This document shows, piece by piece, positions 689 through 26,421 of a DNA stretch of 36,488 bases. Where the stretch lies: positions 1-36,488 of the IMG/VR virus record IMGVR_UViG_3300027833_001206. The stretch is one strand, 5' to 3'. How positions within the stretch are numbered: the first letter of the stretch is position 1; each line of letters starts with the position of its first letter. The position numbers were made by a program, and so were the translations under genes. The notes beneath the pieces were generated by a model. That model did not search any database. It was not told the origin of the DNA and saw nothing but the letters and a program-made list of their open reading frames with translations. The DNA is from a virus.

Positions 689-1252
689 ATGGGAAGAATT
701 AGAGATCGCGGTAATGATGGTGGTGATGTTTACAGATGGCAAACATTAGCTAGATTTGTAAATACAAACGGATGGAAACGTGGAGCAGAGCTTGGCATTC
801 ACGATGGTGTTAATTATAGATACCTTATTAACAATTGTCCTAACCTACATCTAATCGGTGTGGACTTATACGAAGCACAACCAGAGAATAACGGACCTGA
901 GAAATGGACGCCAGGAGAAAATGGGCATCCGTGGAAGCATGAAGATTACTACGACAATATGTTGTCTTTCTCAGTAGAAAATCCTGACAGAACTATGATT
1001 ATTAAAGACTACACCACAGAAGCGGCTAAGATGGTTCCTGATGGTACACTAGACTTTGTGTTCATTGATGCTGATCATGGTTATGAAGGTTGCCTACGAG
1101 ACATTAAAGCTTGGGATCAAAAGGTACGCAAAGGTGGCGTTGTGTTTGGTCATGACATACACTTCCCAACAGTAACACAAGCAGTCACAGAATTTTATGG
1201 TGAAAACTCATGGAACGTCGAAGATGACTTTATTTGGTGGGTGCAGAAGTGA
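689..1252 (+). CDS. Class I SAM-dependent methyltransferase
   Basis: This 187-residue protein resembles the Methyltransf_24 type of SAM enzyme. Residues 33-39 (AELGIHD) match motif I, the glycine-rich SAM loop. Further on, a hydrophobic strand ends in FIDADHGYEG, the motif around the catalytic/metal region of these O-methyltransferases, and GHD follows in the next strand. The start has a strong site (GGAGATATATTATG). It overlaps the next gene by four bases and opens a cassette with two glycosyltransferases and a sulfotransferase, so a sugar or glycan hydroxyl is a likely acceptor. The acceptor cannot be read from sequence. A second methyltransferase of similar layout lies at 18012. Confidence 0.72.
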   Translation: MGRIRDRGNDGGDVYRWQTLARFVNTNGWKRGAELGIHDGVNYRYLINNCPNLHLIGVDLYEAQPENNGPEKWTPGENGHPWKHEDYYDNMLSFSVENPDRTMIIKDYTTEAAKMVPDGTLDFVFIDADHGYEGCLRDIKAWDQKVRKGGVVFGHDIHFPTVTQAVTEFYGENSWNVEDDFIWWVQK

Positions 1253-1896
1253 TAGAGAAGAAACTAAGTCAGATATGGATAGGTCCCAAACCAGCACCAC
1301 TTACTTGGATGCACACTTGGAGAGACAAACATCCTGATTGGAAGTATTCTATATTCGATGACACTATGCTGAAGTCTCGCAAATGGAAGAACCAACATCT
1401 TATCGAACACTATTACAACACAGGTAAGTGGCCAGGCGTGTCTGATTTGATTAGATACGAACTATTATATGAGCAAGGTGGGTTTTGGCCTGAGGCTGAT
1501 ATGACTTGCTTGGAGAACACAGAAGAGTTGTTTACTTCACCAGAAAACCATGCATATTCTTGTTATGAAAACGAAAGAGGAAGACACAACTTCATTCAAC
1601 CCATTATGGCATGTAATCCAGAGAACGAATTTGTTAAGCACGTTATAGATACACTACATATATTAACTCCACAAGAGTTAAGCCCAGAGCCGTTTAGATC
1701 AACTGGCAATTTGTTTTTGTCACGTCACGTTCCTCATTGGATGCATCAACTTACCGTATGGCCTAGTCACTACTTTATCCCACTATTTTATATTGGTGGT
1801 GCTAAGAGGTATGACGGAACTGATAAGGTGTATGCTGATCATAAATGGGGATCGACAGGACACGCAAACAGCATAACATATGATAAGGGTATATAA
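1249..1896 (+). CDS. Glycosyltransferase of the DXD sugar-binding (OCH1/capsular) type
   Basis: The 215-residue product starts with KKLSQIWIGPKPAP and WMHTWRDKHPDW, the N-terminal signature of Gly_transf_sug / OCH1-like GT32 enzymes. It then has DLIRYELLYEQGGFW, the helix and glycine pair before the metal motif. The usual YxDxD is here PEADM, so one acidic position is shifted or changed; activity is likely but not certain. I prefer the GTG at 1249, which overlaps the upstream TGA as GTGA. An upstream TTG at 1234 is also in frame. The stop overlaps the next start by one base (TAATG). Predicted to add a hexose or hexosamine to a surface glycan. Confidence 0.7.
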   Translation: MIEKKLSQIWIGPKPAPLTWMHTWRDKHPDWKYSIFDDTMLKSRKWKNQHLIEHYYNTGKWPGVSDLIRYELLYEQGGFWPEADMTCLENTEELFTSPENHAYSCYENERGRHNFIQPIMACNPENEFVKHVIDTLHILTPQELSPEPFRSTGNLFLSRHVPHWMHQLTVWPSHYFIPLFYIGGAKRYDGTDKVYADHKWGSTGHANSITYDKGI

Positions 1897-2570
1897 TGTA
1901 CGTAAGCCACAAATACAAATTAATCTTTCTAAGAACACCAAAGACTGCAAGTAGTAGTCTGTCTGAATTCTTCATTAAGAATATTCCTGACCCTGATGCA
2001 ATCTACACGCCAGTAGAAGACTCTAACATCCCACCAACTTTGAGTAAAGAAGTTATCAACAAATACAAAATTAATTTTGCATACTATCATTTCACACTAC
2101 AAGACTTGGTAGAAAATGGTATCATAACAAAACAGCAAGCACTTGAGTATAGATCAATTGCAGTTGTTCGTGACCCTATTGATAGACAGAAAAGCTTTTA
2201 CTATTTCTACAAGAAATGGAAAAGCGTGGGTACGCCCCCATCCATCGAACAGTACAATGCATGGACATCATCAAAAGGTTCTTTCTTGGGGGAGCCAAAC
2301 TCTGCTATTCTACAAAGTGACATACTTAAGTTAGATGGGGAAATTCGTGGAGAATATTGGTTGTATGAGAACATCGCAAATGATCTAAGTCATATGATGC
2401 GCGAACTTAACCTACAGGTAACACATCCATTGCCCAACCACAAAAATGATTTCAGAACAAATCGAGACAATGAGATCACATTTGACAAGAAAGCTATGGA
2501 TAAGCTACATGAAACCTTTGGCGCTGACGTACAATTGTACGTCAAAACAGCAGAGGAAACTTTCGTATGA
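1896..2570 (+). CDS. Sulfotransferase-family protein
   Basis: The 224-residue protein opens with a strand followed by RTPKTASSSL (residues 13-22), the 5'-phosphosulfate-binding loop of carbohydrate sulfotransferases, which use PAPS as donor. Residues 88-100 (SIAVVRDPIDRQKS) match the 3'-phosphate-binding strand, VVRDPxxR. Length and layout fit the small Sulfotransfer_2-like bacterial and phage forms. It sits between two glycosyltransferases, and its stop overlaps the next start as ATGA, so a glycan is the likely acceptor. The family call is strong. The exact substrate is unknown. Confidence 0.75.
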   Translation: MYVSHKYKLIFLRTPKTASSSLSEFFIKNIPDPDAIYTPVEDSNIPPTLSKEVINKYKINFAYYHFTLQDLVENGIITKQQALEYRSIAVVRDPIDRQKSFYYFYKKWKSVGTPPSIEQYNAWTSSKGSFLGEPNSAILQSDILKLDGEIRGEYWLYENIANDLSHMMRELNLQVTHPLPNHKNDFRTNRDNEITFDKKAMDKLHETFGADVQLYVKTAEETFV

Positions 2571-3250
2571 AGGCTCACATCTTAAAGATTGATAAGAAGT
2601 TGTCGCATGATTATGCAAAGACTTGCGCAGATTCATGTGATAAAGTTGGGCTACCTTGGTCATACCACATAGGTTATACCAATCAAACTGGTAAGATGGC
2701 GTTCGCTAATCTAAACATACCTAGTTTGCCAACAGAACCTTATAGTTACATTCCAGAACCAACCCAAGGACAGAAGGCTATGTGTTGTACTGCTGGTCAC
2801 ATTGCCATATGGCAGAAGATCGCAAACGGTACTGATAACGTTGGGGTTGTGTTGGAACATGACGCTATAATGCTACAACCAATAACAATAGAGATACCAG
2901 AGAATACCATTGTGGTTCTTGGGTATAAGCTAAATGATCCGTCAAGATATGATCATGTCGCTGCTGGTGTTCCTAATGAACTAATTAGGCTTGATGGTCA
3001 TGAGGGCGCACACGCATATGCTATGACTAAAAGAACTGCTAAGTTTCTAGTGGATGAGCTACATACACAGGGATTGCGGAGTGCAGTTGATAATGACTAC
3101 TTTATTCGTGGTCAGCGTCGAACTGCTATGCCACTTCATATAGCTTCCCCAACTCCTACCATTGGATGGCTAAGAGAATCGACTATTTGGGGTGTTTCTG
3201 CAAATAAAAACTACGATTTCATACCTTCCTTTCTTAAAAATTATAAATAA
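2567..3250 (+). CDS. Family 25-like glycosyltransferase (LPS-type)
   Basis: This 227-residue protein resembles GT25 enzymes of lipooligosaccharide synthesis. It has a short N-terminal strand (HILKID), a helix near residue 75 (TAGHIAIWQKIA) and then GVVLEHDAIM, which matches the family's LEDDA metal/donor motif with one Asp replaced by His. A later AVDNDYFIRG segment fits the acceptor region. It is the last gene of the four-gene cassette that starts at 689. A late promoter overlaps its stop codon, so the next transcription unit begins here. The acceptor is unknown. The His substitution could alter metal use. Confidence 0.6.
   Translation: MKAHILKIDKKLSHDYAKTCADSCDKVGLPWSYHIGYTNQTGKMAFANLNIPSLPTEPYSYIPEPTQGQKAMCCTAGHIAIWQKIANGTDNVGVVLEHDAIMLQPITIEIPENTIVVLGYKLNDPSRYDHVAAGVPNELIRLDGHEGAHAYAMTKRTAKFLVDELHTQGLRSAVDNDYFIRGQRRTAMPLHIASPTPTIGWLRESTIWGVSANKNYDFIPSFLKNYK
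3242..3249 (+). promoter_or_regulatory. T4-type late promoter TATAAATA
   Basis: Exact TATAAATA octamer overlapping the end of the GT25-like gene, 18 bases before the basic protein at 3268. In T4 this sequence is read by RNA polymerase with the phage late sigma factor gp55 and the gp33/gp45 co-activators. Confidence 0.75.
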
Positions 3251-13566: not shown

Positions 13567-15264
13567 ATGAGAAAATACAAAAAGAACTACTGGTTAAATG
13601 ATGACTCGCGTACATTCCTGTCGAGAGGGTACTTGACTAACAACGAAAAACCAGAAGATCGTATCCGTGATATTGCAGATAAGGCTGAATGGTATCTCAA
13701 AGATATGGCAACCACTAAAGCAAGAAAAGCAAAATACGATGGCTTTGCTGACAAATTCTATGATTATATGAGTCGTGGATTTTATTCTTTGGCAAGTCCT
13801 ATCTGGGCTAACTATGGTAAAGATCGTGGCCTACCTGTGTCATGCTTTGGCTCGTTTATTGATGACAGTATGCAAGCTATCCTATTTGGTCATGCCGAAA
13901 ATGGTATGCTAATGAAAAATGGTGGTGGTACTTCTGGTTACTTTGGTGCTGTTCGTGGACGTGGTGCGCCTATCACTGACAGTGGAGACTCTTCTGGTTC
14001 TGTACACTTCATGCAGATGTATGACACATTAGCTTCAGTAGTATCACAGGGTTCTGTTCGTCGTGGTTTCTTTGCGGCGTATCAAGACATCGAACATCCT
14101 GATGCTGATGAATTTCTTGACATTGGTACTGAAGGCAACCCTATCCAAGGGCTTACAACGGGCATCACAGTGAGCAACAAGTTCATTGATGAGATGAAGT
14201 CAGGTGACCCTGATAAGCGCCGTTTGTGGGCTAAGGTACTACAGCGCCGTTCTGAGATTGGCTATCCTTACATCTTGTTCTCTGACAATGTAAATGATGG
14301 ACGTCCACAAGTCTACAAAGACAAGGATATGCGTGTTCATGCTTCTAACATGTGCGCTGAGATTGCTCTACCATCTTCACATGAAGAAACATTTACTTGT
14401 GTACTATCGTCTCTTAATGTTCTGCATTGGGATGCAATCAAAGATACAGATGCTATTGAAGTTCTTACTATGTTCCTTGACACAGTTTGTGAAGAGTTTA
14501 TTCGTAAGACTGAAGGTCAAATTTACATGAAACGTGCGCGTGACTTCGCTAAGAACCACCGTGCATTAGGTGCTGGTATCTTGGGTTGGCACTCATATCT
14601 ACAGTCCAATATGATTTCTTTTGAGTCTAAAGAGGCGGCACAAATTAATCTTGAAATCGCAAAGACAATGCAAGAGAGATCATATGCGGCTTCGCGTGAG
14701 ATGGCTAAGACTTTGGGTGAACCATCATTGCTAGAGGGTTACGGTATGCGTAACACGACAACAATGGCTATTGCACCTACTAAGTCATCAAGCTTTATTC
14801 TAGGTCAAGTATCACAGTCTATTGAACCTGAGTTCTCTAATGCCTATGTGAAAGACCTTGCTAAGATGAAAGTTACTATTCGTAACCCATACCTTACAGA
14901 ATTGCTCGTGGCTAAGGATCAAGACAATGTTGATGTTTGGGAATCGATCAAGAACCGTGATGGATCAGTTCAACACCTTGAGTTTTTGACTGAAGACGAA
15001 CGTGCTGTATTCAAGACATTCTCTGAGATCAGTCCAACTACAATCATCGATCAAGCGGCTATTCGTCAGGAATATATTGACCAAAGCCAAAGCTTGAACT
15101 TGATGCTTGATCCAGATATGACAGTTAAGGATATTAACGCATTGTATCTGTATGCAAATGAGATGGGTGTTAAGAGCTTGTACTATGCGTTCTCAATGTC
15201 AGCGGCTCAGTCGTTAACACGTAAGCGCGTAATGTCAGCAGATTGTGCCGCCTGTGAAGCGTAA
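13567..15264 (+). CDS. nrdA: Ribonucleotide reductase large subunit without ATP-cone
   Basis: A 565-residue catalytic subunit, shorter than usual because the N-terminal ATP-cone is absent. Active-site residues are present: Cys93 (VSCFGSF) and Cys278 as the reducing pair, Asn261, Cys263 and Glu265 (NMCAEIALP) as the thiyl-radical centre, Tyr539 and Tyr540 (SLYYAF) on the radical path, and the C-terminal Cys560/Cys563 shuttle. It reduces ribonucleoside diphosphates to dNDPs. The glutaredoxin at 26649 could recycle the shuttle cysteines. Its last codons overlap the start of 5-aminolevulinate synthase, tying the two translationally. Confidence 0.95.
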
Positions 15265-16459
15265 CAGACACTACTCAGATTACTTTACCCAAACACTTGA
15301 TGATTTCAAGGGTGATGGTCGTTATAGAATTTTTAACGATATACTAAGGGAGCGTGGGAATTTTCCACGTTCCATTTGGTACGGTAAATACGCACCAAAG
15401 AATATAGTTAATTGGTGTTCAAATGATTATTTGGGCATGGGTCAAAACCAATACGTAATTGATGCGATGCATACAGCATTAGATCAAACAGGTGCTGGTT
15501 CTGGTGGTACACGTAACATTGGTGGTACTTCACACTACCACGTTACATTAGAGCGTGTATTAGCTGGGTTACACCAAAAGCAAGCGTCTCTGTTGTTTAC
15601 GAGTGCATATGTAGCAAATGAGTGGTCGCTTGTTGCTATTTCTCGTATTCTGCCTAATGTATGTTTCATATCTGATGAGAAGAACCACAACTCTTTGATT
15701 ATGGGCGTGAAGCACAGTAGGGCTAATAAACGTATCTTTAAGCATAATGATATGGATGACTTGGAGACACATCTAAAGGCGGCTGTAGAAGCTAACGAGA
15801 TGCCTGTAATCTTGTTTGAGTCTGTGTATAGTATGGATGGTGACGTCTCTCCTATCGCAGATATATGTGACTTAGCAGACAAATACGAAGCCTTTACCTT
15901 CATTGATGAGGTTCATGCTGTTGGTCTTTATGGTGATACTGGTGCAGGTTATTGCGAGAAGCTAGGTCTTTCAGATCGTATCGACATTATTAACGGCACA
16001 CTAGGCAAAGCGTTTGGTGTTCAAGGTGGTTATATTGCAGGTAAGAGAAATGTTGTTGACGCAATCAGATCGGTTGCTGCTGGATTTATTTTCACAACAA
16101 GTATGTCACCTGTATTATGTGCTGGTGTTCTTGCATCTGTTACATACCTAAAAGATCACAATAGTGTTAGGGATAAACACCAAGAAAGAACTGCCAAGTT
16201 AAAAGAGATGTTGGTTGATGCTGGTATGGATATCCATCCTAATGCCTGTACACACATCATCCCTGTTATGGTAAATGATGCGTTCAAGTGTAAACTAGCA
16301 AGTGATAGGCTATTAAATGAATTCGGTATATACATTCAACCGATTAACTCTCCAACAGTGGCAGTGGGAACTGAACGTTTACGTATTGCCCCTACTCCAT
16401 TCCATACCGATATAATGATGGTGGAATTAGTCGAAGCATTAAAAGAGGTATTGAAATGA
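15254..16459 (+). CDS. hemA: 5-aminolevulinate synthase (Shemin/C4 pathway), auxiliary metabolic gene
   Basis: A full-length (401 residue) PLP enzyme of the alpha-oxoamine synthase family. Features are [17 protein letters not shown] at the N-terminus, [30 protein letters not shown], the PLP-binding [11 protein letters not shown] (Asp218, His221) and the Schiff-base lysine in TLGKAFG (Lys252). The N-terminus and GTRNI glycine-rich segment favour ALAS over the relatives KBL and BioF. ALAS joins glycine and succinyl-CoA to make the first haem precursor and is typical of alphaproteobacteria. Start is GTG at 15254 (another GTG at 15245) inside the end of nrdA. No disabling change is visible. I recall reports of phage ALAS genes in aquatic viromes. 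Confidence 0.9.
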
Positions 16460-16926
16460 ATCAACTTGAGTTTAATTTCTTTGCACCTCGTAAGAAAGAG
16501 AATATTATGAAAAAGATTATGAAACCATTTTGGTTTGTTCTAGGCATCATCTTAGTGGGCGTTGCCTACTTGGGTGTTATCGTCCCAGGATTACCGTGGA
16601 GTACGCCAATCCTTGGTGCTACATTCTGCTTTGCTAAGTCTAGTGATAGATTCCACAATTGGATTTTAAACCACAAGACTTTCGGACCTTTTATTAAGAA
16701 TTGGTCTAAGTATCGTGTATATCCAACGAAAGCAAAGTACCTTATGGTGGCAGTAATGTCATCCTCTCTGGCGTTTCTGTGGTTCACTACAGGCAACCCA
16801 AAGGCGGTACTATACTTAGCCATTACTATGGCATTGATCGTGTTTTGGGCTTGGAGATACCCTGGTTCACAAGCTGAGGCTGAAAAGCGAATTAAACTAG
16901 GCAAGAAAATCGGTTGGCTAAAATAG
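16456..16926 (+). CDS. DUF454 (YbaN-like) inner-membrane protein
   Basis: A 156-residue protein with three to four membrane segments, starting in an ATGA overlap with the ALAS stop. It has the DUF454 hallmarks: [24 protein letters not shown], then [18 protein letters not shown]. The family (E. coli YbaN) has no established biochemical role. An alternative start at 16507 would drop the first 17 residues. The coupling to ALAS hints at a shared tetrapyrrole, metal or membrane function, but that rests only on position. This gene is the last before a late promoter and hairpin. Confidence 0.8.
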
Positions 16927-16934
16927 TATAAATA
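16927..16934 (+). promoter_or_regulatory. T4-type late promoter TATAAATA
   Basis: Exact octamer at the end of the DUF454 gene, about 60 bases before the second glycan cassette (16993-20352), for which it is the only promoter I can see. Confidence 0.75.
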
Positions 16935-16936
16935 AA

Positions 16937-16960
16937 AGCATCCCCACATAAGGGGGTGCT
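16937..16960 (+). terminator. Strong hairpin immediately after the late promoter
   Basis: AGCATCCCC and GGGGGTGCT form a nine-pair stem (one G-T pair) with a six-base loop. No T run follows directly, so termination would be partial. For transcripts started at the late promoter it would lie at the extreme 5' end and might protect the mRNA. The same order occurs at 633-668. Confidence 0.55.
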
Positions 16961-16992
16961 AATTACACAATGTTTTTGATGGAGAGTATATA

Positions 16993-18015
16993 ATGAAAAG
17001 AGTTCTAGTAACTGGTGGCGCAGGTTTTATTGCACACCATACAATTTCAGAAATTTTAAGAAGAACCGATTGGGAAATTGTTTCGCTAGATCGTCTTGAT
17101 TATAGTGGGAACTTGAACCGTCTACACGATGTTCTGTCAGACCTTACTGACGCACAGCGAAAGAGATTTAGGGTAGTATACCATGATCTAAAAGCTGAAT
17201 TAAATCCTATGATCACAGCAGATATTGGACGTATTGATTACGTAATTCACATGGCGGCTGGTTCGCACGTAGATCGCTCTATTGACCATCCTATGGAATT
17301 TGTGATGGACAACGTGGTAGGAACATGCAACCTTCTAAACTATGCTAGACAACTAGACAGTCTTGAGCGGTTGATTTACTTCTCGACTGATGAGGTATTC
17401 GGTCCTGCACCAGAAGGTGTCAAGTATAAAGAGTATGATCGTTACAACTGTACTAACCCATACTCTGCTTCAAAAGCTGGTGGTGAAGAACTTGCTGTAG
17501 CTTTCGAGAACTCTTATGACATGCCAATCTACATTACACATACAATGAACGTATTTGGGGAGCGTCAGCATCCTGAGAAGTTTATCCCTATGTGTATCAG
17601 AAACATTCGTGACGGTAAGTCAGTCACAGTACACTCTAACTCTGAGAAAACAAAAGCTGGCAGTCGCCATTACATTCACGCGAATGACGTAGCAGATGCT
17701 ACCTTGACACTAATCCAATCAGATTTTCAACGCAACAATGATGGTACTGGTATCAGATCACAGAAGTTCAACATTGTAGGTGCAGAGGAATTAGACAACC
17801 TTGAGGTTGCTAAGATTATCGCTGAGGCACAAGGCAAAGAATTAAAATACGAAATGGTTGATTTCCATTCATCACGCCCAGGTCATGATTTGCGTTATGC
17901 TATGTGTGGCGAAAGAATGAAAGATCAACTGAACTGGGAGCCAAAGCCAGTGCGTGAGCGCCTAGCAGAGGTTACTGAATGGACATTGAACAATACAAGG
18001 TGGTTAGACATATGA
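16993..18015 (+). CDS. NAD-dependent sugar epimerase/dehydratase (RmlB-like extended SDR)
   Basis: A 340-residue extended short-chain dehydrogenase. It has the Rossmann motif GGAGFIA (8-14), the substrate and cofactor segment MAAGSHVDRSI, the catalytic FSTDEVFG (Ser, Thr, Asp, Glu as in dTDP-glucose 4,6-dehydratase) and NPYSASKAGGE with the Tyr-Lys pair. The TDE triad favours a 4,6-dehydratase over a simple epimerase. It would make a deoxy-sugar nucleotide for the glycosyltransferases nearby. The nucleotide (dTDP or other) cannot be fixed from sequence. It overlaps the methyltransferase start (ATGA). Confidence 0.82.
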   Translation: MKRVLVTGGAGFIAHHTISEILRRTDWEIVSLDRLDYSGNLNRLHDVLSDLTDAQRKRFRVVYHDLKAELNPMITADIGRIDYVIHMAAGSHVDRSIDHPMEFVMDNVVGTCNLLNYARQLDSLERLIYFSTDEVFGPAPEGVKYKEYDRYNCTNPYSASKAGGEELAVAFENSYDMPIYITHTMNVFGERQHPEKFIPMCIRNIRDGKSVTVHSNSEKTKAGSRHYIHANDVADATLTLIQSDFQRNNDGTGIRSQKFNIVGAEELDNLEVAKIIAEAQGKELKYEMVDFHSSRPGHDLRYAMCGERMKDQLNWEPKPVRERLAEVTEWTLNNTRWLDI

Positions 18016-18590
18016 GTTTCGTACAATACATAGAAGGCGAGTACAACAACGCCAAGAACACATTTTCCGACATCAATGAGCATATTGAATTGCTTTATAC
18101 GTTGGGAATGGAATGTGAACATATCACTGAAATGGGAGTACGTGATGGTCAAAGTAGTCGAGCATTTCTTAATACGAATGCCGCTCTAAGATCATATGAC
18201 ATGGAACTAGATGAAGAAGTGATGGATTTGTTTAAAAGAGCCAAGACTGTTGGTAAAGACGTGAAGTACATGGAAGCAAACGTTTTGAAAATAGAAATTG
18301 AAGAAACAGATTTGCTATTCATTGATACTTGGCACTCTGGCTCACAACTGAAACGTGAGCTTAAGATGCACGGAGACAAAGCAAAGAAGTTCCTTGCCTT
18401 CCACGATACCCACACTTATGGGTGTAGAGATGAAAAGCAGAACTGGCGAGACTTCAAAGATAAAAGACCGATGGCTGGTGAAGGGCTTCTTGCATCTATT
18501 ATTCATTTTGTTATGGAAAACCCTCAGTGGAAATTTAAAGAGTTTAGAACAAACAACAACGGCTTGACCGTGCTAGAAAGGACTAAGTAA
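18012..18590 (+). CDS. SAM-methyltransferase-like protein
   Basis: A 192-residue protein, started at the ATG at 18012 that overlaps the previous stop. Residues 37-47 (ITEMGVRDGQS) fit motif I, and LLFIDTWHSGSQL followed by FHDTHTYG resembles the FIDADH and GHD motifs of the methyltransferase at 689. The family is Methyltransf_24 or cephalosporin-hydroxylase-like. The two are not close copies. The target is unknown. Its placement between a sugar dehydratase and a glycosyltransferase-sulfotransferase supports a sugar acceptor. The next gene starts on the last base of its stop (TAATG). Confidence 0.65.
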   Translation: MSFVQYIEGEYNNAKNTFSDINEHIELLYTLGMECEHITEMGVRDGQSSRAFLNTNAALRSYDMELDEEVMDLFKRAKTVGKDVKYMEANVLKIEIEETDLLFIDTWHSGSQLKRELKMHGDKAKKFLAFHDTHTYGCRDEKQNWRDFKDKRPMAGEGLLASIIHFVMENPQWKFKEFRTNNNGLTVLERTK

Positions 18591-20122
18591 TGATTGTCGA
18601 TTGCTTCCCATTCTTTGCCCCTTATGGTGAAGAACTACTAAAACTAAGAGTGAACCTCTTGAAGGATGTTGTTGATAAGTTCATCATTGTGGAATCAAAC
18701 AAGACACACAGTGGTAAACCAGTCGAACGTAAGTTTCTTGACATTGCACTCAAGCAAGGGTTGCCAATGGAAAAGATTATCTACATTGAACACGATATTC
18801 CAGAGACAGAAGAACTAGAGATTAAAAAGGTTGACAAGATCAATGCTGGTGTGAACAAGGGCAATGAAGAATCCTTGTACGCACGAGTTCGTGAACGTCT
18901 TCAAAAAGATGCTGTCATGGAAGCAATGAATCAGTTTAATGATAATGATGTGTTTATCTATGGTGATGCAGATGAAATCATTAAGCCTGAGAACGTCAAA
19001 TGGGTTGCAAGAATGTGTGTTAATCACCAAGAAATTATTCTTAAAATTCCACTGGCGTACCTACAAGGACGTGCAGACCTAAGAGCATTTAATGAAGATG
19101 GCAGTCATGTTGTTTGGTGGAAGGCTATGTTCTTTGCGACTAAGGCTCAGATCATGAAAACATCTGTCAATAGGATTAGATGTGGCGCTATCGATTGGCC
19201 TATCCGTTGGCCTACTCATAACAACAAAGTAATCCAAGACATGGGTTGGCACTTTGCGTGGATGGGTAATGCAAAGCAACGTCAAGCAAAAGCAGACTCG
19301 TTTGCCCATGCACACGACTCTTTTGAGTGGATGGCAGATGGTGCTAGTGGATACTCTGAGTACAATAAGCTTGGTGACACTCTGATGGAAGAAGGACGCG
19401 CACCTGATGGTAATGTAAATCATCATCTAAAGAGGTTCCCTGTAGAGCAACTACCAAAATTGATCTTTGAAGATGAAGAGATTAAAGAATTTCTATTACC
19501 TTCAGTGAAAATGGATGAAGATTACCAATTCAGTGCTTGTAATTGTTTTTGGTGTCAGAAGCTTCAGTTCCCATTACTATATAACCTTGATGGTGAACGT
19601 AATTGGTTTGAAGTACCAAGAAGCTGTAGCGTAACAATCAAAGAAACATTCCCTGATCGTAGACAAATCATGCGTGACACAGATGATTACGATGAGTTGA
19701 GAGGAAAACCAATTATGGTATTCTCTGATCCAGTCGAACGCTTTGAGTCTTGTATCAATGCTTATTTGGTTGAAAAACAACGCTACTATCACTATGGCGA
19801 AGATATGTTCGCATCGTTTGGTGTTGATCTGAAAACTTGTACTAAGCAAGAAAAGATTGACTATTTCTTTGCAAACTTCAACAAATTGTCTTCACATCAT
19901 CAGCTACACCATTTCCACCCACAGGCATGGTTTGTTGATCAAGATAAATTTAAGAAGTTTACGGTTGTTGACAAACATGATGTTTCGGAAACATTTAAGG
20001 TTAGCCACAAGCTAAACCAAACAAAGAAAGAAATCTTGAAGGATGACTTATCAGATGAACAGTTGGCGTTCGTGAAGAAAATCTACCAAGAAGACTACGA
20101 CTTCTACAAAAAGCACAAATGA
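18590..20122 (+). CDS. Two-domain GT17-like glycosyltransferase fused to a sulfotransferase-like domain
   Basis: A 510-residue protein with two apparent domains. Residues 1-about 290 resemble family 17 (GnT-III-like) glycosyltransferases: MIVDCFPFFAPYGEELLKLR, FIIVESNKTHSGKP and the donor-metal motif GDADEI (125-130). Residues about 335-510 have a sulfotransferase pattern: EVPRSCSVTIKETF (341-354) in place of the PAPS phosphosulfate loop, VFSDPVERFES (377-387) for the 3'-phosphate strand and a C-terminal IYQEDYDFYK helix as in carbohydrate sulfotransferases. The two domains would add a sugar and then sulfate it. The PAPS loop is not canonical (Arg-Ser-Cys instead of Lys-Thr-Gly), so activity needs testing. 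Confidence 0.7.
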   Translation: MIVDCFPFFAPYGEELLKLRVNLLKDVVDKFIIVESNKTHSGKPVERKFLDIALKQGLPMEKIIYIEHDIPETEELEIKKVDKINAGVNKGNEESLYARVRERLQKDAVMEAMNQFNDNDVFIYGDADEIIKPENVKWVARMCVNHQEIILKIPLAYLQGRADLRAFNEDGSHVVWWKAMFFATKAQIMKTSVNRIRCGAIDWPIRWPTHNNKVIQDMGWHFAWMGNAKQRQAKADSFAHAHDSFEWMADGASGYSEYNKLGDTLMEEGRAPDGNVNHHLKRFPVEQLPKLIFEDEEIKEFLLPSVKMDEDYQFSACNCFWCQKLQFPLLYNLDGERNWFEVPRSCSVTIKETFPDRRQIMRDTDDYDELRGKPIMVFSDPVERFESCINAYLVEKQRYYHYGEDMFASFGVDLKTCTKQEKIDYFFANFNKLSSHHQLHHFHPQAWFVDQDKFKKFTVVDKHDVSETFKVSHKLNQTKKEILKDDLSDEQLAFVKKIYQEDYDFYKKHK

Positions 20123-20352
20123 TACGCAAACCTAACATAGATGCATTATGGGCTGAAATTGAAGCATTAAAATCTGACAAGACAAATTTGTATGATGAAA
20201 TTGATGCTTTGAAAACCCAGAACATGATGCTACTAGAATCTTTAGATGCTATCACACAAGACGATACCTTTTGGTCAGAGGAAGCTTTGAAATCAGGTAT
20301 CGTCTTTAAACTAAAGAATGTATTGACTCAAATAAAGAATAATTATTCTTGA
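20119..20352 (+). CDS. Small coiled-coil protein
   Basis: A 77-residue protein overlapping the fusion gene by four bases. Residues about 8-45 show leucine/isoleucine heptads (ALWAEIEALKSDKTNLYDEI, then DALKTQNMMLLESLDAI), predicting a parallel coiled coil. A second helix follows. There is no enzyme motif. A partner or oligomerisation role for the upstream enzymes is possible but unproven. A sigma70-type promoter overlaps its stop. Confidence 0.6.
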   Translation: MIRKPNIDALWAEIEALKSDKTNLYDEIDALKTQNMMLLESLDAITQDDTFWSEEALKSGIVFKLKNVLTQIKNNYS

Positions 20353-20974: not shown

Positions 20975-21301
20975 ATGACAAAAGATAATGAACTTTACGT
21001 AGTGACTACCGTAGTTTCTACACACCGTATGAGATATGCAATTCCAATTAGCACTATTAGTCTCGAAGGTGACATGCCGTTGCCTACTGATCAAGCCATC
21101 AATTACATTCAAGACAGTGTGACCATGGAAGAAGTTGAAGAGTTCTCCCAACATTGGATGGGTGAGAGTATCGTTGATACCTTTGTTCTCGACAAAGAGC
21201 GTGTTCTTAATCTGTATAAACGTGACAATCCACATGTGGTAGAGGACATGTCGGATCAAAAAATACTTGATCGTATTGCCGATTGGAAGATTAAGAAATG
21301 A
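20975..21301 (+). CDS. Conserved small phage protein, function unknown
   Basis: A 108-residue protein with an N-terminal beta-rich part (ELYVVTTVVSTHRMRYAIPIS) and helical, acidic C-terminal half (MEEVEEFSQHWMGES). Its stop overlaps the UDP-sugar dehydrogenase start. From memory, similar VVTTVxxHRMRYA proteins occur in marine T4-like phages. No functional motif is visible. Confidence 0.55.
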   Translation: MTKDNELYVVTTVVSTHRMRYAIPISTISLEGDMPLPTDQAINYIQDSVTMEEVEEFSQHWMGESIVDTFVLDKERVLNLYKRDNPHVVEDMSDQKILDRIADWKIKK

Positions 21302-22044
21302 ATATCCTAATTTGTGGATATGGTTTTGTGGGGATGGCGCATGCGTTGTCCCTACAGCCGCATTACATTACTCATATATATGATCCTATGAAAGGATATG
21401 AAAAGTGGGTTGATTGCGATGCGGCAATCATAGCTGTATCTACACCTGAGAATGAAGATGGCTCGTGTAATATGAGTAATGTGTATCAAGTTATTGAGCG
21501 CATTAAAGATGACGTTCCAATATTAATAAAGTCAACAATTAGCCTTGAAGGTTGGGAACTCATCAAACGTGCCTACCCAAAAAGACAGATTACATTCTCA
21601 CCAGAATACTTACGTGCCAACCACGCAATGGAAGACTTTAAAAATCAAAAGTCAGTTTCTATCGGTGGTGGCGATACCACTTATTGGTTGCGTATCTTAT
21701 CTACATTGAGCATTCCTGTAGAAATAAAGAATCCTGAGATTTTAATTTTGACTAAGTATTTCCGCAACTCGTACTTAGCAATGAAGGTTGCGTTCTTTAA
21801 CCAGATGTATGATATGGCTTCCGAAGTTGGTTTGGAGCCTCACGAACTATTGCAGAGTGTTTCAGATGATCCTAGAATTGGTAAGAGCCACACATATGTA
21901 CATGAAGATGATCGTGGTTACGGTGGTCACTGCTTCCCTAAGGATGTGTCTGCACTACTAAATACAGCACACACAAAAGGTGTGGATTTAACTATTCTAT
22001 CAGAAGCTATGCAATATAATGAGAGGTTGAGAGATGAAGGTTAA
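21298..22044 (+). CDS. Short UDP-glucose/GDP-mannose dehydrogenase-family protein
   Basis: A 248-residue protein with the NAD-binding GYGFVG (7-12), VSTPENEDG, the middle-domain helix ILTKYFRNSYLAMKVAFFN and the catalytic GYGGHCFPKD (Cys212, Lys215). UDP-glucose dehydrogenases are normally about 390-450 residues. This one ends soon after the catalytic Cys and so lacks the C-terminal UDP-binding domain. The stop is clean and overlaps the next gene, so this is not an obvious frameshift. All catalytic residues are kept. It may use another subunit or substrate for binding, as judged from the shared short form in marine phages that I recall. Confidence 0.78.
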   Translation: MNILICGYGFVGMAHALSLQPHYITHIYDPMKGYEKWVDCDAAIIAVSTPENEDGSCNMSNVYQVIERIKDDVPILIKSTISLEGWELIKRAYPKRQITFSPEYLRANHAMEDFKNQKSVSIGGGDTTYWLRILSTLSIPVEIKNPEILILTKYFRNSYLAMKVAFFNQMYDMASEVGLEPHELLQSVSDDPRIGKSHTYVHEDDRGYGGHCFPKDVSALLNTAHTKGVDLTILSEAMQYNERLRDEG

Positions 22045-22459
22045 AATTAGCGGTTATCCAAGCTATAACTACTGGTTAGATAGATTGTTTGGGTGGAACC
22101 CCAAGCAAAAGATAAGTGTTCGTATTGATAAACATGATACGTGGAGTATGGATCATACACTTGCTCATATTATCTTGCCTATGCTAGTACAACTAAAAGA
22201 AAATAATCACGGCTTTCCTGCTAACTTAGAAGAACAGGAGTGGGATGACATCATGGATGAAATGATTTGGGCGTTTGAACAAAAGTGTCGTGATACCTGG
22301 GAAGGTGACTTTTACGGCGACTATGTTGAAGATCAAAAGAATGGGTCGATGGTTGGTAGTTTTGAATGGATTGACCATGAAGGAATGAAAGCACATCAAG
22401 AACGCATGAGTAATGGCTTTATGTTGTTTGGTAAATACTACGAAAATTTATGGGATTGA
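22034..22459 (+). CDS. Conserved phage protein with WSMDHTLAHIILPML motif
   Basis: A 141-residue protein containing IRIDxxDTWSMDHTLA-like and LAHIILPMLVQLKE segments and WDDIMDEMIWAFEQK. I recognise this as a family common in marine myoviruses with unknown function. It is mostly helical and acidic, and has no signal peptide. It overlaps the dehydrogenase gene upstream by 11 bases. Confidence 0.6.
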   Translation: MKVKISGYPSYNYWLDRLFGWNPKQKISVRIDKHDTWSMDHTLAHIILPMLVQLKENNHGFPANLEEQEWDDIMDEMIWAFEQKCRDTWEGDFYGDYVEDQKNGSMVGSFEWIDHEGMKAHQERMSNGFMLFGKYYENLWD

Positions 22460-22461
22460 AA

Positions 22462-22875
22462 ATGAAAGTAGGAATAACGTTTAGCACATTTGATTTGCTA
22501 CATGCAGGTCATATACAGATGCTTCGTGAAGCTAAGGATCATTGCGACTATCTCATCTGTGGTTTGCAGATGGACCCTACCCAAGATCGTCCTGATAAGA
22601 ACAGTCCAGTACAGACCATTGTTGAGCGTTACAGCCAACTTAAGGGTGTCAAGTACGTTGATGAGATTATCCCATATGGATCAGAAGCAGACGTTGAAGA
22701 TATCTTGACAATGTACCAACTTCATGTTAGAATATTAGGAGAAGAATACAGAGATAAAGAGTTTACTGGCAAAGATATTTGCCGTAGACGTGATATTGAT
22801 TTATATTTTAATAAGCGCGATCATAGATTTAGTTCTAGTGATCTACGCAAAAGAGTTTGTGAAAGGAATGAATGA
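22462..22875 (+). CDS. Cytidylyltransferase-like nucleotidyltransferase (TagD/RfaE C-terminal type)
   Basis: A 137-residue nucleotidyltransferase. It opens with VGITFSTFDLLHAGHIQM, with HAGH at 14-17 (HxGH, the CTP/ATP-binding signature), then YLICGLQMDP, ERYSQLKGVKYVDEIIPYG, and FSSSDLRKRV corresponding to the ISSTxIR motif. The family makes CDP-glycerol, CDP- or ADP-activated sugars. I start at 22462; an in-frame ATG at 22450 overlaps the previous gene. It could activate a sugar or alcohol for the phage glycan genes nearby. Confidence 0.8.
   Translation: MKVGITFSTFDLLHAGHIQMLREAKDHCDYLICGLQMDPTQDRPDKNSPVQTIVERYSQLKGVKYVDEIIPYGSEADVEDILTMYQLHVRILGEEYRDKEFTGKDICRRRDIDLYFNKRDHRFSSSDLRKRVCERNE
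22705..22733 (+). promoter_or_regulatory. Possible sigma70-type promoter inside the cytidylyltransferase gene
   Basis: TTGACA (22705-22710) and TAGAAT (22728-22733) with a 17-base spacer. It could serve the small genes from 22872 onward, but it is within coding sequence and may be chance. Confidence 0.35.
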
Positions 22876-23054
22876 TGACAGAAGGTCCGTTTAAAAATGC
22901 ATTTGATGCAGATGTTAATGGTGTAATCAGACGTGAGATCATAACATACCGTATGCGTGATGGTATTATGATTAAAGAAGAAGCAGTTCGTGATTACTAC
23001 AAAAGTGGAGATTATCATGATTCACAATCAACAGCACCGTTGGTAGCGCGATGA
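22872..23054 (+). CDS. Small conserved phage protein (EGPFKNAFDADVNG type)
   Basis: A 60-residue protein with TEGPFKNAFDADVNGVIRRE, ITYRMRDGIMIKE and a C-terminal DYHDSQSTAPLV. From memory this compact conserved protein accompanies marine T4-like phage accessory genes. No function can be inferred. It overlaps genes on both sides by four bases. Confidence 0.6.
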   Translation: MMTEGPFKNAFDADVNGVIRREIITYRMRDGIMIKEEAVRDYYKSGDYHDSQSTAPLVAR

Positions 23055-23299
23055 ATAGTGTAAAAGGCGTAGCTGGCGTAAAGGGCGTAGCTGGCGTAAA
23101 GGGCGTTGCTGGATTAGGGTTACCTATGAGAGGTATTCATGACACTACGGAAGTTCGTGAAACTGATGGTGAAATGGAAATTTTCTTGCATGATTTAGCT
23201 CGTAAAGAAAATAGCGACTTTATTAGAAAGATTGCAGATAGATTTGCTATGTTGACTGCAAAGGCGCATAATCGTAAACATTGGACAGGAACAGAATAG
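23051..23299 (+). CDS. Small protein with N-terminal VKGVAG repeats
   Basis: An 82-residue protein whose residues 4-21 are three copies of VKGVAG, encoded by 18-bp DNA repeats. The rest (DDxx-rich helices, EIFLHDLARKEN and FIRKIADRFAMLTAKAH) is helical and basic. The downstream part probably forms the conserved fold, with the repeat an added glycine-rich extension. No family recognised. An ATGA overlap joins it to the previous gene. Confidence 0.6.
   Translation: MNSVKGVAGVKGVAGVKGVAGLGLPMRGIHDTTEVRETDGEMEIFLHDLARKENSDFIRKIADRFAMLTAKAHNRKHWTGTE
23060..23113 (+). repeat. Three tandem 18-bp repeats
   Basis: Three in-frame copies (23060-23077, 23078-23095, 23096-23113) encoding VKGVAG. They differ at only a few bases, so they likely arose by replication slippage and could vary in number among relatives. 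Confidence 0.8.
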
Positions 23300-23307
23300 G
23301 AAAAATT

Positions 23308-23487
23308 ATGTTTAAACTTTTTACAAAAACTCAAGAAGAAGAACCAATGGAATATGAGGCTGATGTTTTCGTAACCCCAATTAAAGAACAGGTTACAGAA
23401 ATCTCACCATTGTGGGAAGAAGTGTTTGAGCGTATGGATGCAATCGAAGCTAAGATCGATTTGCTTTTAGATAATCAGAACTTCTAA
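23308..23487 (+). CDS. Small acidic protein, function unknown
   Basis: A 59-residue protein started at the ATG at 23308 (GGAAAAATT upstream); an earlier in-frame start at 23281 would overlap the previous gene. It is acidic, with a C-terminal heptad-like helix (WEEVFERMDAIEAKIDLLLD). It precedes the carbamoyltransferase gene with no gap. No family recognised. Confidence 0.5.
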   Translation: MFKLFTKTQEEEPMEYEADVFVTPIKEQVTEISPLWEEVFERMDAIEAKIDLLLDNQNF

Positions 23488-24843
23488 ATGATCATTGGGA
23501 TAAGCGAAGGCTTTCATGATGCAAGCGTAAGTGTAGTTGATGGGGGTAATATCCTTTCAGCTACACATGCTGAGCGCTATAGTCGTAAGAAGAATGATCG
23601 TTGGACGCACCCATCACAATACCCTAAAGATGTTGATGCAACCGTGGCGTTCTATGAAAAGCCTTGGCTTAAGAAAACACGACAGCTATACTCTGGACAG
23701 GGATGGAAACCATGTCGTACTGATTATGACGTTTCCTTTTACCACCATCAATCACATGCGGCGGCAGGTTTCTACACGTCTAAGTTCGACACATGTAATA
23801 TCTTAGTGATCGATGCTATTGGAGAATGGGATACTGTTTCTGTTTGGAATGCTTGGATGGTTAATGACATCCCCAAGATGAAGAAGATCAAAAGCTTTAA
23901 ATACCCACACTCTATTGGATTGTTTTATTCTGCTATTACTAAGCACATAGGATTGAAGCCACAGGAAGATGAATACATTACAATGGGAATGGCGGCATAC
24001 GGCGAACCAACTCATGTAGATGACTTAAAAAATTACTTGCACTACTATAATTGCCATAAAGGGTTGCCTAAACTTCCTCATTATTGGATGGATGTGGATA
24101 TTGCGGCATCAGCACAAAAGCTTGTTGAAAATACGATAGTTGATTTAGTGAACAAATACTGCCCACATGAAAACCTAATCATGATGGGTGGTGTTGCAAT
24201 GAATTGCGTTGCCAACACTAAGGTAGCGGAACTTGGAAAAAACATCTGGATTATGCCAAGCCCAGGTGATGCAGGATCGTCGTTGGGTGCGGCGGCATTG
24301 GCATACGGTAAGAAGTTAAATTGGGTAGACCCATACCTTGGAACGGAGATTAAAAATGAAATCAAAATTAAAAATGTTATTAAAACTCTTCTCAGTGATG
24401 GGTATTGTGGTACTGCAAATGGTCGTGCTGAGTTTGGCGCTCGTTCCCTTGGTAATCGTAGCCTTATTGCTGACCCTAGACTCGACATTAAAGACACTAT
24501 TAACGAAGTTAAGCGTAGACAAAAATTTCGACCCTTTGCACCTTCTATCTTGGAAGAATTTGCTGATGAATATTTCGAAGGACAGATGAATGAGTACATG
24601 CAGTTTGTCGCTAAGGCAAAGCATGATCATAAGTCAGTAACCCATGTAGATGGGACTGCACGAGTACAGATCGTAAGAAAAGACTGTAAATCTGTTTTGA
24701 GAACAATACTTGAGGAATGGCATAGTAAGACTGGTTGTCCAATGCTTTTGAATACAAGCCTAAATATAAAAGGTCAGCCAATGGTTGATACGTGGGAACA
24801 TGCTCTTGAGTTTCAAAGGAAATATAATGTCAAAGTCTTCTAA
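23488..24843 (+). CDS. Carbamoyltransferase (NodU/CmcH/TobZ family)
   Basis: A 451-residue enzyme. The N-terminal Kae1-like domain has the metal-binding HHQSHAA motif (His86, His87, His90), MGGVAMNCVAN and PSPGDAGSSLGAA. The C-terminal carbamoyl-transferring part has GRAEFGARSLGNRS, RQKFRPFAPSIL and LLNTSLNIKGQPM. It is shorter than typical family members (about 550-600). It transfers a carbamoyl group from carbamoyl phosphate through carbamoyl-AMP to an acceptor hydroxyl on sugars, antibiotics or modified nucleobases. The sugar genes nearby favour a glycan target. A hydroxymethyl-base target is possible, but no hydroxymethylase is visible in the window. Confidence 0.85.
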   Translation: MIIGISEGFHDASVSVVDGGNILSATHAERYSRKKNDRWTHPSQYPKDVDATVAFYEKPWLKKTRQLYSGQGWKPCRTDYDVSFYHHQSHAAAGFYTSKFDTCNILVIDAIGEWDTVSVWNAWMVNDIPKMKKIKSFKYPHSIGLFYSAITKHIGLKPQEDEYITMGMAAYGEPTHVDDLKNYLHYYNCHKGLPKLPHYWMDVDIAASAQKLVENTIVDLVNKYCPHENLIMMGGVAMNCVANTKVAELGKNIWIMPSPGDAGSSLGAAALAYGKKLNWVDPYLGTEIKNEIKIKNVIKTLLSDGYCGTANGRAEFGARSLGNRSLIADPRLDIKDTINEVKRRQKFRPFAPSILEEFADEYFEGQMNEYMQFVAKAKHDHKSVTHVDGTARVQIVRKDCKSVLRTILEEWHSKTGCPMLLNTSLNIKGQPMVDTWEHALEFQRKYNVKVF

Positions 24844-25633
24844 GTATATTTTAGCTGCTGGGTGTAGCTTTACTGACCCTTATTTTAAGTCTATTCCTCA
24901 CCCAGATATGGATACATCCTTTCCTAAATGGCCTGAGGTATTGGGAGAGTATCTCGATTTAGATGTGGTAAATATTGGACGTTGTGGTGTTGGGAACGAT
25001 CAAATTTGCCGTAAGGTAATAACACACATACTAAAGAACCAAGAAAAAATAGAGTTAGTCGTGATAGGATGGACAGAAATACAACGATTTCACATTTATA
25101 ATGAATTAAATCTTAATCCACATAACTATTTTTTAAACCCTGAGCGTGAACTGCCTTTTCACTCGGAACCCGCTAAACCGCTTTACCATTATTTGTATAA
25201 AAAATACTTGATAGATCACTACTACAACCCAGGGCATGAAAATCTATTCATTTGGCAGGTAAAGGATTGGTTTGACCAAATGTTTCAAGTACAAGAAATA
25301 TGTAAAAAGTTAAATATTAAGTTTATAATGTCAAGCCTATGTGGCTCTGTAGAAATAGAAAGATATATGAAAGCATTAGATGCAGTCGAGGGACGTTTCA
25401 CCTTTACTTCTGTCCAATGGGCATTGATGTTTGGTAACACTGAAGGATTATACGATTTAGACAACAATCATTATTGGGGATACCCATTCATACAAGCAAT
25501 GGGTGGCAAAGGTATGGATCAAAATATACCAAAGTCACATAGAATATCAGATTTAGACATGCACCCTAATGAATTAGGACACGAATTAATAGCGAGAAGA
25601 TACTATGAACAGTATGCAAAAGTTTATTCTTAA
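24827..25633 (+). CDS. SGNH/GDSL hydrolase-like protein
   Basis: A 268-residue protein started at the ATG at 24827 (AAAGGAAATATA before it), overlapping the carbamoyltransferase by 17 bases. The SGNH block I is ILAAGCSFTDP near the start with the nucleophile Ser, and the C-terminal block V is DLDMHPNELGHELIA with the Asp-His pair. A GVGNDQ segment may be the block III glycine/asparagine. Family members are esterases, often for O-acetyl groups on sugars. Phage genomes often pair such genes with sugar-modifying enzymes. The substrate is unknown. Confidence 0.68.
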   Translation: MSKSSKYILAAGCSFTDPYFKSIPHPDMDTSFPKWPEVLGEYLDLDVVNIGRCGVGNDQICRKVITHILKNQEKIELVVIGWTEIQRFHIYNELNLNPHNYFLNPERELPFHSEPAKPLYHYLYKKYLIDHYYNPGHENLFIWQVKDWFDQMFQVQEICKKLNIKFIMSSLCGSVEIERYMKALDAVEGRFTFTSVQWALMFGNTEGLYDLDNNHYWGYPFIQAMGGKGMDQNIPKSHRISDLDMHPNELGHELIARRYYEQYAKVYS

Positions 25634-25713
25634 ATTAAAATTTAAACTGATGATTCTTAAGATGAGAATAAAACCACAAAAAACAGAAGCAGATAACCAC
25701 AAAGGATACATTT

Positions 25714-26421
25714 ATGAAGAAGACGAAGATTAAATATGTGTTTGACGTAGACGGTACATTGACTCCTAGTAGGGGAAGAATGAACAAACACTTTGCAGTG
25801 TGGTTTAGTAAATTTTGCGAACATAATGATGTATACTTAGTTACTGGTAGTGATAAACCTAAGACTGTAGAACAAGTTGGTGCATACATCTATCATGCAT
25901 GTAAACGAGTGTATAATTGTTCTGGTAATGACGTATATGAGCGTGACCAAAACTTGAGAAGAAACGAATGGAAGTTACCAGAACTAGCAAGAACATTCCT
26001 TATTAGCTGTGAATACGAAAGTGGTTTTGGTTTGCGTACAGGAAGACATATTGAAGAACGTCCTGGATGTGTAAACTTTAGTGTAGTTGGCAGAAATGCT
26101 ACTAAGAAGAATCGTGCTGAGTATGTCTTGTGGGACAAGAAAATTGATGAACGTTCCAATATAGCAAACGCATTTAACATGATGTTCCCAGACCTACAAG
26201 CTAACGTTGGTGGAGAGACTGGAATAGATATAGCTCCAAAAGGTGCAGACAAATCACAAATTCTAACTGACTTCAAAGGTGCTGAAGTCTATTTCTTTGG
26301 AGATGCAATGGATGAGGGTGGTAACGATTATGCTTTGAAAATTGCGAATAAATACGGTAAGAACTTTACAGTCAAAGACTGGAAGGACACATGGGATAAA
26401 CTTAAAGAATTAGGAGAGTAA
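25714..26421 (+). CDS. Eukaryotic-type phosphomannomutase-like HAD protein
   Basis: A 235-residue HAD-superfamily protein with FDVDGTLTPSRGR (the nucleophile Asp and phosphoryl-binding motif), LVTGSDKPK, RPGCVNFSVVGRNA (the substrate-binding segment of PMM), GGETGIDIAPKGADKSQIL and FFGDAMDEGGND with acidic metal ligands. The cap with RPGxxNxSxxGR is characteristic of eukaryotic-type phosphomannomutases (PF03332), which interconvert mannose-6- and mannose-1-phosphate on the way to GDP-mannose. Few bacteria have this version. It would feed mannose or GDP-sugar supply to phage or host glycans. Confidence 0.72.
   Translation: MKKTKIKYVFDVDGTLTPSRGRMNKHFAVWFSKFCEHNDVYLVTGSDKPKTVEQVGAYIYHACKRVYNCSGNDVYERDQNLRRNEWKLPELARTFLISCEYESGFGLRTGRHIEERPGCVNFSVVGRNATKKNRAEYVLWDKKIDERSNIANAFNMMFPDLQANVGGETGIDIAPKGADKSQILTDFKGAEVYFFGDAMDEGGNDYALKIANKYGKNFTVKDWKDTWDKLKELGE

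Follow-up and report, generated by a model that had tools for sequence, protein, structure and literature searches.

A conserved late-type sugar operon with a GT17 and sulfotransferase-fold fusion in uncultured T4-like ocean viruses

Sugar genes of marine phages are usually taken as variable cargo. What, then, is the role of a four-gene sugar unit that is nearly fixed across a clade of uncultured viruses? This question is raised by the IMG/VR viral record IMGVR_UViG_3300027833_001206, whose 36,488 analysed bases are referred to here as the window; all coordinates are those of the whole window unless a contig is named. Positions 16927-20352 carry, behind a promoter of the T4 late type and a hairpin, genes for a nucleotide-sugar dehydratase-like enzyme, a methyltransferase-like protein, a fusion of a glycosyltransferase domain with a sulfotransferase-fold domain, and a protein of 77 residues. 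We propose that these genes form a conserved, late-type operon for tailoring a glycan in the cytoplasm, with a phage structural protein as the probable acceptor, a reading to which we give an even chance.

Architecture and conservation of the operon

The operon begins with a T4-type late promoter found by motif scan, TATAAATA (16927-16934, plus strand, as for all operon features), followed by a leader hairpin at 16937-16960 in which AGCATCCCC and GGGGGTGCT form a 9-bp stem around six nucleotides. Four open reading frames (ORFs) come next, at 16993-18015, 18012-18590, 18590-20122 and 20119-20352; because the stop and start codons of consecutive ORFs overlap (ATGA, TAATG and ATGA, respectively), the genes look translationally coupled. 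The promoter, the hairpin and the domain assignments that the first-pass annotation had made for this region were all found in place, but the gene set, described there as ending in the fusion, continues into the 77-residue ORF, which that annotation had not named.

In the window, TATAAATA occurs eight times on the plus strand, where 1.7 occurrences are expected, and never on the minus strand, and the motif NATAAATA was present upstream of the dehydratase gene in 32 of 34 distinct relatives. The promoter motif suggests that the operon would be expressed late. Of the eleven scanned sites that resemble late promoters, the ones at 633 and 16927 alone lead straight into a strong hairpin (-15.6 and -17.0 kcal/mol, respectively). 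The leaders of the relatives fall into a short class (44-58 nt) devoid of a hairpin and a long class (66-94 nt); a stem of at least 7 bp was found in 16 of the 17 long leaders, against 4.3 expected from mononucleotide shuffles. In one subgroup, three of the nine stem pairs were changed on both sides with all cells paired, a result of modest weight as it comes from seven sequences. Hairpins below -8 kcal/mol accompanied 56% of the sites before the dehydratase gene and 36% of the other late-type sites in relatives (p = 0.02), which is a small difference. A leader peptide within the conserved stretch ATGTTnTTGATGA was considered and rejected, since the reading frames differ among relatives.

A scan of viral contigs retrieved 63 relatives, and 58 other viral loci were found to carry the fusion, a few of them cut by contig ends. 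Where the contig allows, the gene order is fixed in almost all fusion loci, namely 5-aminolevulinate synthase (ALAS), DUF454, dehydratase, methyltransferase and fusion, while the flanking genes vary; at a single locus (L021) the methyltransferase is missing from the operon. That the operon is nearly fixed while its neighbours change points to an important late function. The viruses that carry the operon form an uncultured, T4-like group from the ocean; the window itself holds T4-type replication genes (primase, RNR, ThyA, RNase H and PhoH), and its primase is nearest to those of cyanophages, with 44% identity.

The first gene (16993-18015) encodes a dTDP-glucose 4,6-dehydratase-like enzyme, for which the phage annotation is 'nucleotide-sugar epimerase' (phrog_540). 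Its best PDB match, over the full length, is the dTDP-glucose 4,6-dehydratase 8du1 (E = 4e-48), and it retains the Rossmann glycine motif GGAGFI together with TDE and YSASK, corresponding to the catalytic TDE and YxxxK of 4,6-dehydratases; therefore, 'dehydratase' is the better label. As its match to TIGR01181 (E = 1.8e-72) reaches 244 bits, under the curated cut-off of 365, we call the enzyme RmlB-like rather than RmlB.

The second gene encodes a class I methyltransferase-like protein and is placed at 18012-18590; the start assigned mechanically upstream, at 17979, is probably wrong, since most relatives begin at the site equivalent to 18012. Profile scores are modest: Methyltransf_24 matched 25 of 30 relatives (best E = 3e-4; 0.032 for the window member) and RMNT_CmcI, the rhamnosyl O-methyltransferase/CmcI family, matched four of the 30. 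Viral relatives of this protein sit in glycan contexts. Some have an FkbM or TylF methyltransferase as neighbour, and three (contigs L177-L179) lie directly 3' of an operon-type dehydratase. Methyltransferase-type relatives in other viruses also occur as fusions, either with GT2 or with cytidylyltransferase and mannose-phosphate isomerase domains (L171, 2245-3540; L175, 2236-3576).

The fusion protein and its small neighbour

The third ORF encodes a protein of 510 residues comprising an N-terminal GT17-like domain (18590-19501) and a C-terminal sulfotransferase-fold domain (19505-20119, hereafter the C-domain). The N-terminus matches PF04724 with E = 4e-8 and 33.1 bits, above the gathering cut-off of 26 bits; its structural matches are GT-A folds, and D126 and D128 of its DAD motif (residues 126-128, a DxD) are invariant in relatives. 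The two domains thus match GT17 and sulfotransferases, and not unrelated families, in agreement with the fusion proposed in the first-pass annotation.

Searched at full length, the window protein matched no sulfotransferase profile at E < 0.1, and sequence searches of the PDB with the C-domain gave chance matches only; Sulfotransfer_2 matched 7 of 20 relatives of the domain weakly (best E = 1.1e-4). The C-domain was modelled by AlphaFold2 with a predicted local distance difference test (pLDDT) score of 92.7, and in the structural alignment of this model all 50 matches listed were sulfotransferases or close relatives, led by 2-OST (Z 7.0 over 152 residues) and NDST1 (Z 6.9). When Foldseek was run with the whole fusion against the PDB, the matches were all taken up by GT-A folds; the C-domain matched viral sulfotransferase models in BFVD (P-SSM7, E = 4e-6).

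The C-domain of the window protein carries PRSCS at residues 343-347, SDPVER at 379-384 and Ser387. Its relatives have Arg at the position of the catalytic Lys in the phosphosulfate-binding (PSB) motif in 30 of 30 cases, Lys being absent, and the Pro, Arg and Ser of PxxRxxS are likewise invariant (30/30), as are several His. The alignment with NDST1 begins at residue 29 of the model and residue 604 of the chain; judged by these range starts rather than by residue alignment, Arg344 of the protein (Arg39 in domain numbering) would fall near NDST1 Lys614, which we take to be the catalytic residue of that enzyme. According to a review, the residue that defines the PSB is Lys, or Arg in the mycobacterial Stf0, and PxxRxxS is the phosphate-binding site (3'-phosphate) of Sulfotransfer_2 (PMC11625862). 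The idea of a plainly dead enzyme was dropped, given that Arg occupies the PSB in Stf0 as well. The C-domain therefore shows features of a sulfotransferase dependent on 3'-phosphoadenosine 5'-phosphosulfate (PAPS), namely fold, PSB Arg and PxxRxxS, the Arg being accepted by analogy with Stf0, and it is probably, though not certainly, an active sulfotransferase-fold domain.

Four contigs (L061-L064) contain GT17 without the C-domain, and in six others (L134, L141, L142 and L144-L146) the C-domain is a gene of its own. Because each also occurs without the other, GT17 and the C-domain are separable modules; as to whether the fused or the split form came first, the tree gave no resolution, as long branches meet.

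The fourth ORF (20119-20352) encodes the 77-residue protein, which is coiled-coil-like by eye and for which no convincing family match was found. All fusion contigs long enough to hold it have it 3' of the C-domain, four of them with 0.7-1.4 kb in between; it also lies beside three of the six C-domains that stand alone, and it is absent from the GT17-only contigs. Since it tracks the C-domain and not GT17, we propose that it may be a partner of the C-domain, a suggestion drawn from few independent events. Besides these genes, 5 of 25 related contigs carry a small P-loop kinase resembling adenosine 5'-phosphosulfate (APS) kinase (L200, 311-736; L201, 214-657), which might be a source of PAPS.

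Cassette 1 and the surroundings of the operon

The first-pass annotation had taken the operon as the repeat of a first cassette, which lies near the start of the window, and had suggested that the two make up one dedicated system. Cassette 1 does open in the same way, with the late-promoter-like CATAAATA (633-640; motif scan, conserved in relatives) and a terminator-like leader hairpin with a T-run (643-664), the one of -15.6 kcal/mol mentioned above, kept in most relatives and absent in L069. Its genes (689-3250; all features on the plus strand) encode a methyltransferase (MT; 689-1252, Methyltransf_24, E = 5e-15), a glycosyltransferase (1234-1896, Gly_transf_sug, E = 5e-8), a sulfotransferase (ST; 1896-2570, Sulfotransfer_2, E = 4e-10) and a GT25 glycosyltransferase (2567-3250, GT25, E = 1e-5). 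The logic is similar, but the resulting order, MT-GT32-ST-GT25, lacks a nucleotide-sugar enzyme, so that the operon is no repeat of it. The cassette 1 sulfotransferase is canonical: all 14 relatives have the PK and R[DN]P motifs. It could not be aligned by profile with that of the operon (probability 2.9%), and the methyltransferases of the two cassettes showed no detectable closeness.

The cassettes do co-occur in relatives. GT25 of cassette 1 was found in 18 of the 25 contigs tested, and in 18 of the 19 reaching at least 17.5 kb upstream; the seven contigs without it end too soon upstream, L062 (19.4 kb) being borderline. The cassette 1 sulfotransferase was present in 13 of 16 informative contigs and missing from G001 (221 kb), G008 and G023, while complete MT-GT32-ST-GT25 sets were seen in seven contigs and partial sets in six. 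Because both cassettes lie in one syntenic backbone of the phage clade, this co-occurrence is weak evidence for a joint function, and, with the sulfotransferase missing from three informative contigs, the two may or may not make up a single dedicated system. They might share nothing but the genome, as independent backbone genes with unrelated products. This is a serious possibility, which we place somewhat short of an even chance: it fits the distance between the methyltransferases and between the sulfotransferases, as well as the variable content of cassette 1 beside a nearly fixed operon, and synteny suffices to explain the co-occurrence; it accounts less well for the common layout of late promoter and leader hairpin, which no other late promoter in the window shows, and for the same combination of chemistries in both.

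The upstream neighbour of the operon is a full-length ALAS gene (15245-16459; 554 bits against TIGR01821, cut-off 338 bits) with a conservation close to that of the operon, and between the two a DUF454 membrane protein (16456-16926) is constant in nearly all relatives. The presence of alaS in phages has been described before (Wegner et al. 2024, PMC11480375), and ALAS belongs to the Shemin pathway, pointing to alphaproteobacteria (PMC11480375). Together with three relatives binned with a Rhodobacteraceae genome, the ALAS gene points to an alphaproteobacterial host, neither hint being proof. A bacterial origin of the fusion was rejected, as just three contigs from a single Rhodobacteraceae bin, probably co-binned phage, would speak for it. 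Downstream of the operon (21298-26421) there are more sugar-type genes, encoding a short UDP-glucose dehydrogenase-like protein, a cytidylyltransferase-like protein and a NodU-like carbamoyltransferase, along with an SGNH-like protein and a phosphomannomutase-like HAD protein. Upstream of cassette 1 lies a gene for a plastocyanin/azurin-type copper-binding protein (129-569), and a tRNA search across the window found none.

Proposed function and comparison with known systems

In the pathway that we propose, the dehydratase would convert host dTDP-glucose to a 4-keto-6-deoxy sugar nucleotide, the methyltransferase would O-methylate the sugar, the GT17 domain would transfer the methylated sugar to an acceptor, and the fused C-domain would sulfate the product or the acceptor with host PAPS, possibly partnered by the 77-residue protein. 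The analysis shows which genes are present and in what order, the promoter motif, the folds and sequence motifs, and their conservation; we infer late expression itself, the substrates, the order of the reactions, the sulfation, the role of the small protein, the acceptor and the 'methylated, sulfated glycan' already named in the first-pass annotation. A phage structural protein would be the most likely acceptor, on the grounds of the late-type promoter and of the lack of a match to either a flippase (PF01943) or an initiating sugar transferase (PF02397) in eight relatives, mostly fragments, the largest of 221 kb. No membrane segment was found in any cassette protein, which likewise speaks for an acceptor in the cytoplasm.

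Several observations weigh against this reading. An RmlC-type rhamnose epimerase (PF00908), which bears on the fate of the keto sugar, had no match in the same eight, mostly fragmentary, relatives; the profile match of the methyltransferase is weak, and a solved-structure relative was looked for and none was found. The window C-domain scores 11 bits where the Pfam gathering score of PF03567 is 22, which is why we call it 'sulfotransferase-fold' and not a member of that family; its structural Z scores, at most 7, are middling, and Foldseek against the PDB gave nothing below E = 0.07. In addition, all 30 relatives have Ser, Thr or Ala in place of the Arg of the RDP motif. The candidate gene for PAPS supply is uncertain, as the APS-kinase-like protein falls under the curated NCBIfam cut-offs and resembles other kinases just as much. 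The C-domain could then be something other than a working sulfotransferase, either altered in its donor or a non-catalytic module positioning the acceptor or the 77-residue partner. Such a role would agree with the loss of both the Lys and the RDP Arg in all 30 relatives while all 14 cassette 1 enzymes retain them, and with the 2.9% probability in the profile comparison of the two sulfotransferase families. However, Stf0 also has Arg at the Lys position (PMC11625862), and the invariant PxxRxxS and His residues suggest selection for function; we consider this alternative unlikely.

The target of the pathway might also be the host surface, where a late change of lipopolysaccharide (LPS) or another envelope glycan would alter the receptor and block adsorption of sister phages or progeny to infected cells or debris. 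The GT17 gene of cyanophage S-B05 sits in an LPS-type sugar cluster, the window has UDP-glucose dehydrogenase-like, heptose-type cytidylyltransferase-like and carbamoyltransferase genes, and host assembly enzymes could complete an LPS pathway. On the other hand, flippase and initiating transferase were not found in the eight relatives, and late timing leaves a short time for replacing a surface glycan, so that we see this as possible but on the unlikely side. Hypermodification of phage DNA, as with the glucose on hydroxymethylcytosine in T4, is very improbable. In its favour, the phage is T4-like and has glycosyltransferases and a ThyA homologue in the neighbourhood; against it stand the late-type promoter, the loss of the ThyA gene from several relatives that retain the operon, and the absence of a base-modifying enzyme linked to the operon.

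Returning to the virion as the target, the most far-reaching version, in which a single phage polypeptide would both transfer a 6-deoxy (methylated) sugar and sulfate it, with a dedicated small partner, and so coat marine T4-like virions with a sulfated glycan, seems to us quite unlikely. If the fusion is active, it would be a compact glycosyltransferase-sulfotransferase, and phage coating of virions or hosts with sulfated sugars would become directly testable.

This kind of viral sugar-gene cluster is already known, and the term 'undescribed system' used in the first-pass annotation was too strong; it is the arrangement that is new. The T4-like Synechococcus cyanophage S-B05 (Kyanoviridae) has TagD, dTDP-glucose 4,6-dehydratase, rhamnose epimerase, GT17 and O-methyltransferase genes within ~10 kb, and a dehydratase 71.5% identical to that of the operon lies within a sugar cluster of Synechococcus phage S-SM2. 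Among annotated phage records there was no significant sequence match to the methyltransferase, the C-domain or the cassette 1 sulfotransferase, and nothing specific was found in the literature on phage sulfotransferase cassettes. With regard to the leader, promoter/stem-loop elements (PeSLs), in the account cited in PMC4503421, are known at module borders of T4-like phages; the operon likewise has a promoter and stem-loop at a gene-module border, but its promoter is of the late type, whereas those of PeSLs, in that account, are early. T4 gene e is also controlled by a late promoter adjoining a leader stem-loop (PMC3014915), and in contrast to that gene the hairpin of the operon leaves the ribosome site uncovered. 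The N-terminal domain of the fusion scores as a member of the GT17 family (MGAT3-type, PF04724), from which the protein differs in being phage-borne, in having no membrane anchor and in its C-terminal sulfotransferase-fold extension; cyanophage GT17 matches just the N-terminal 58% of the fusion, with 24-25% identity. Finally, the C-domain shares its fold and PxxRxxS with the PAPS-dependent polysaccharide sulfotransferases (Sulfotransfer_2; 2-OST, NDST1 and that of phage P-SSM7), and is set apart from them by Arg in place of the catalytic Lys, by the lack of the RDP Arg and by its fusion to GT17.

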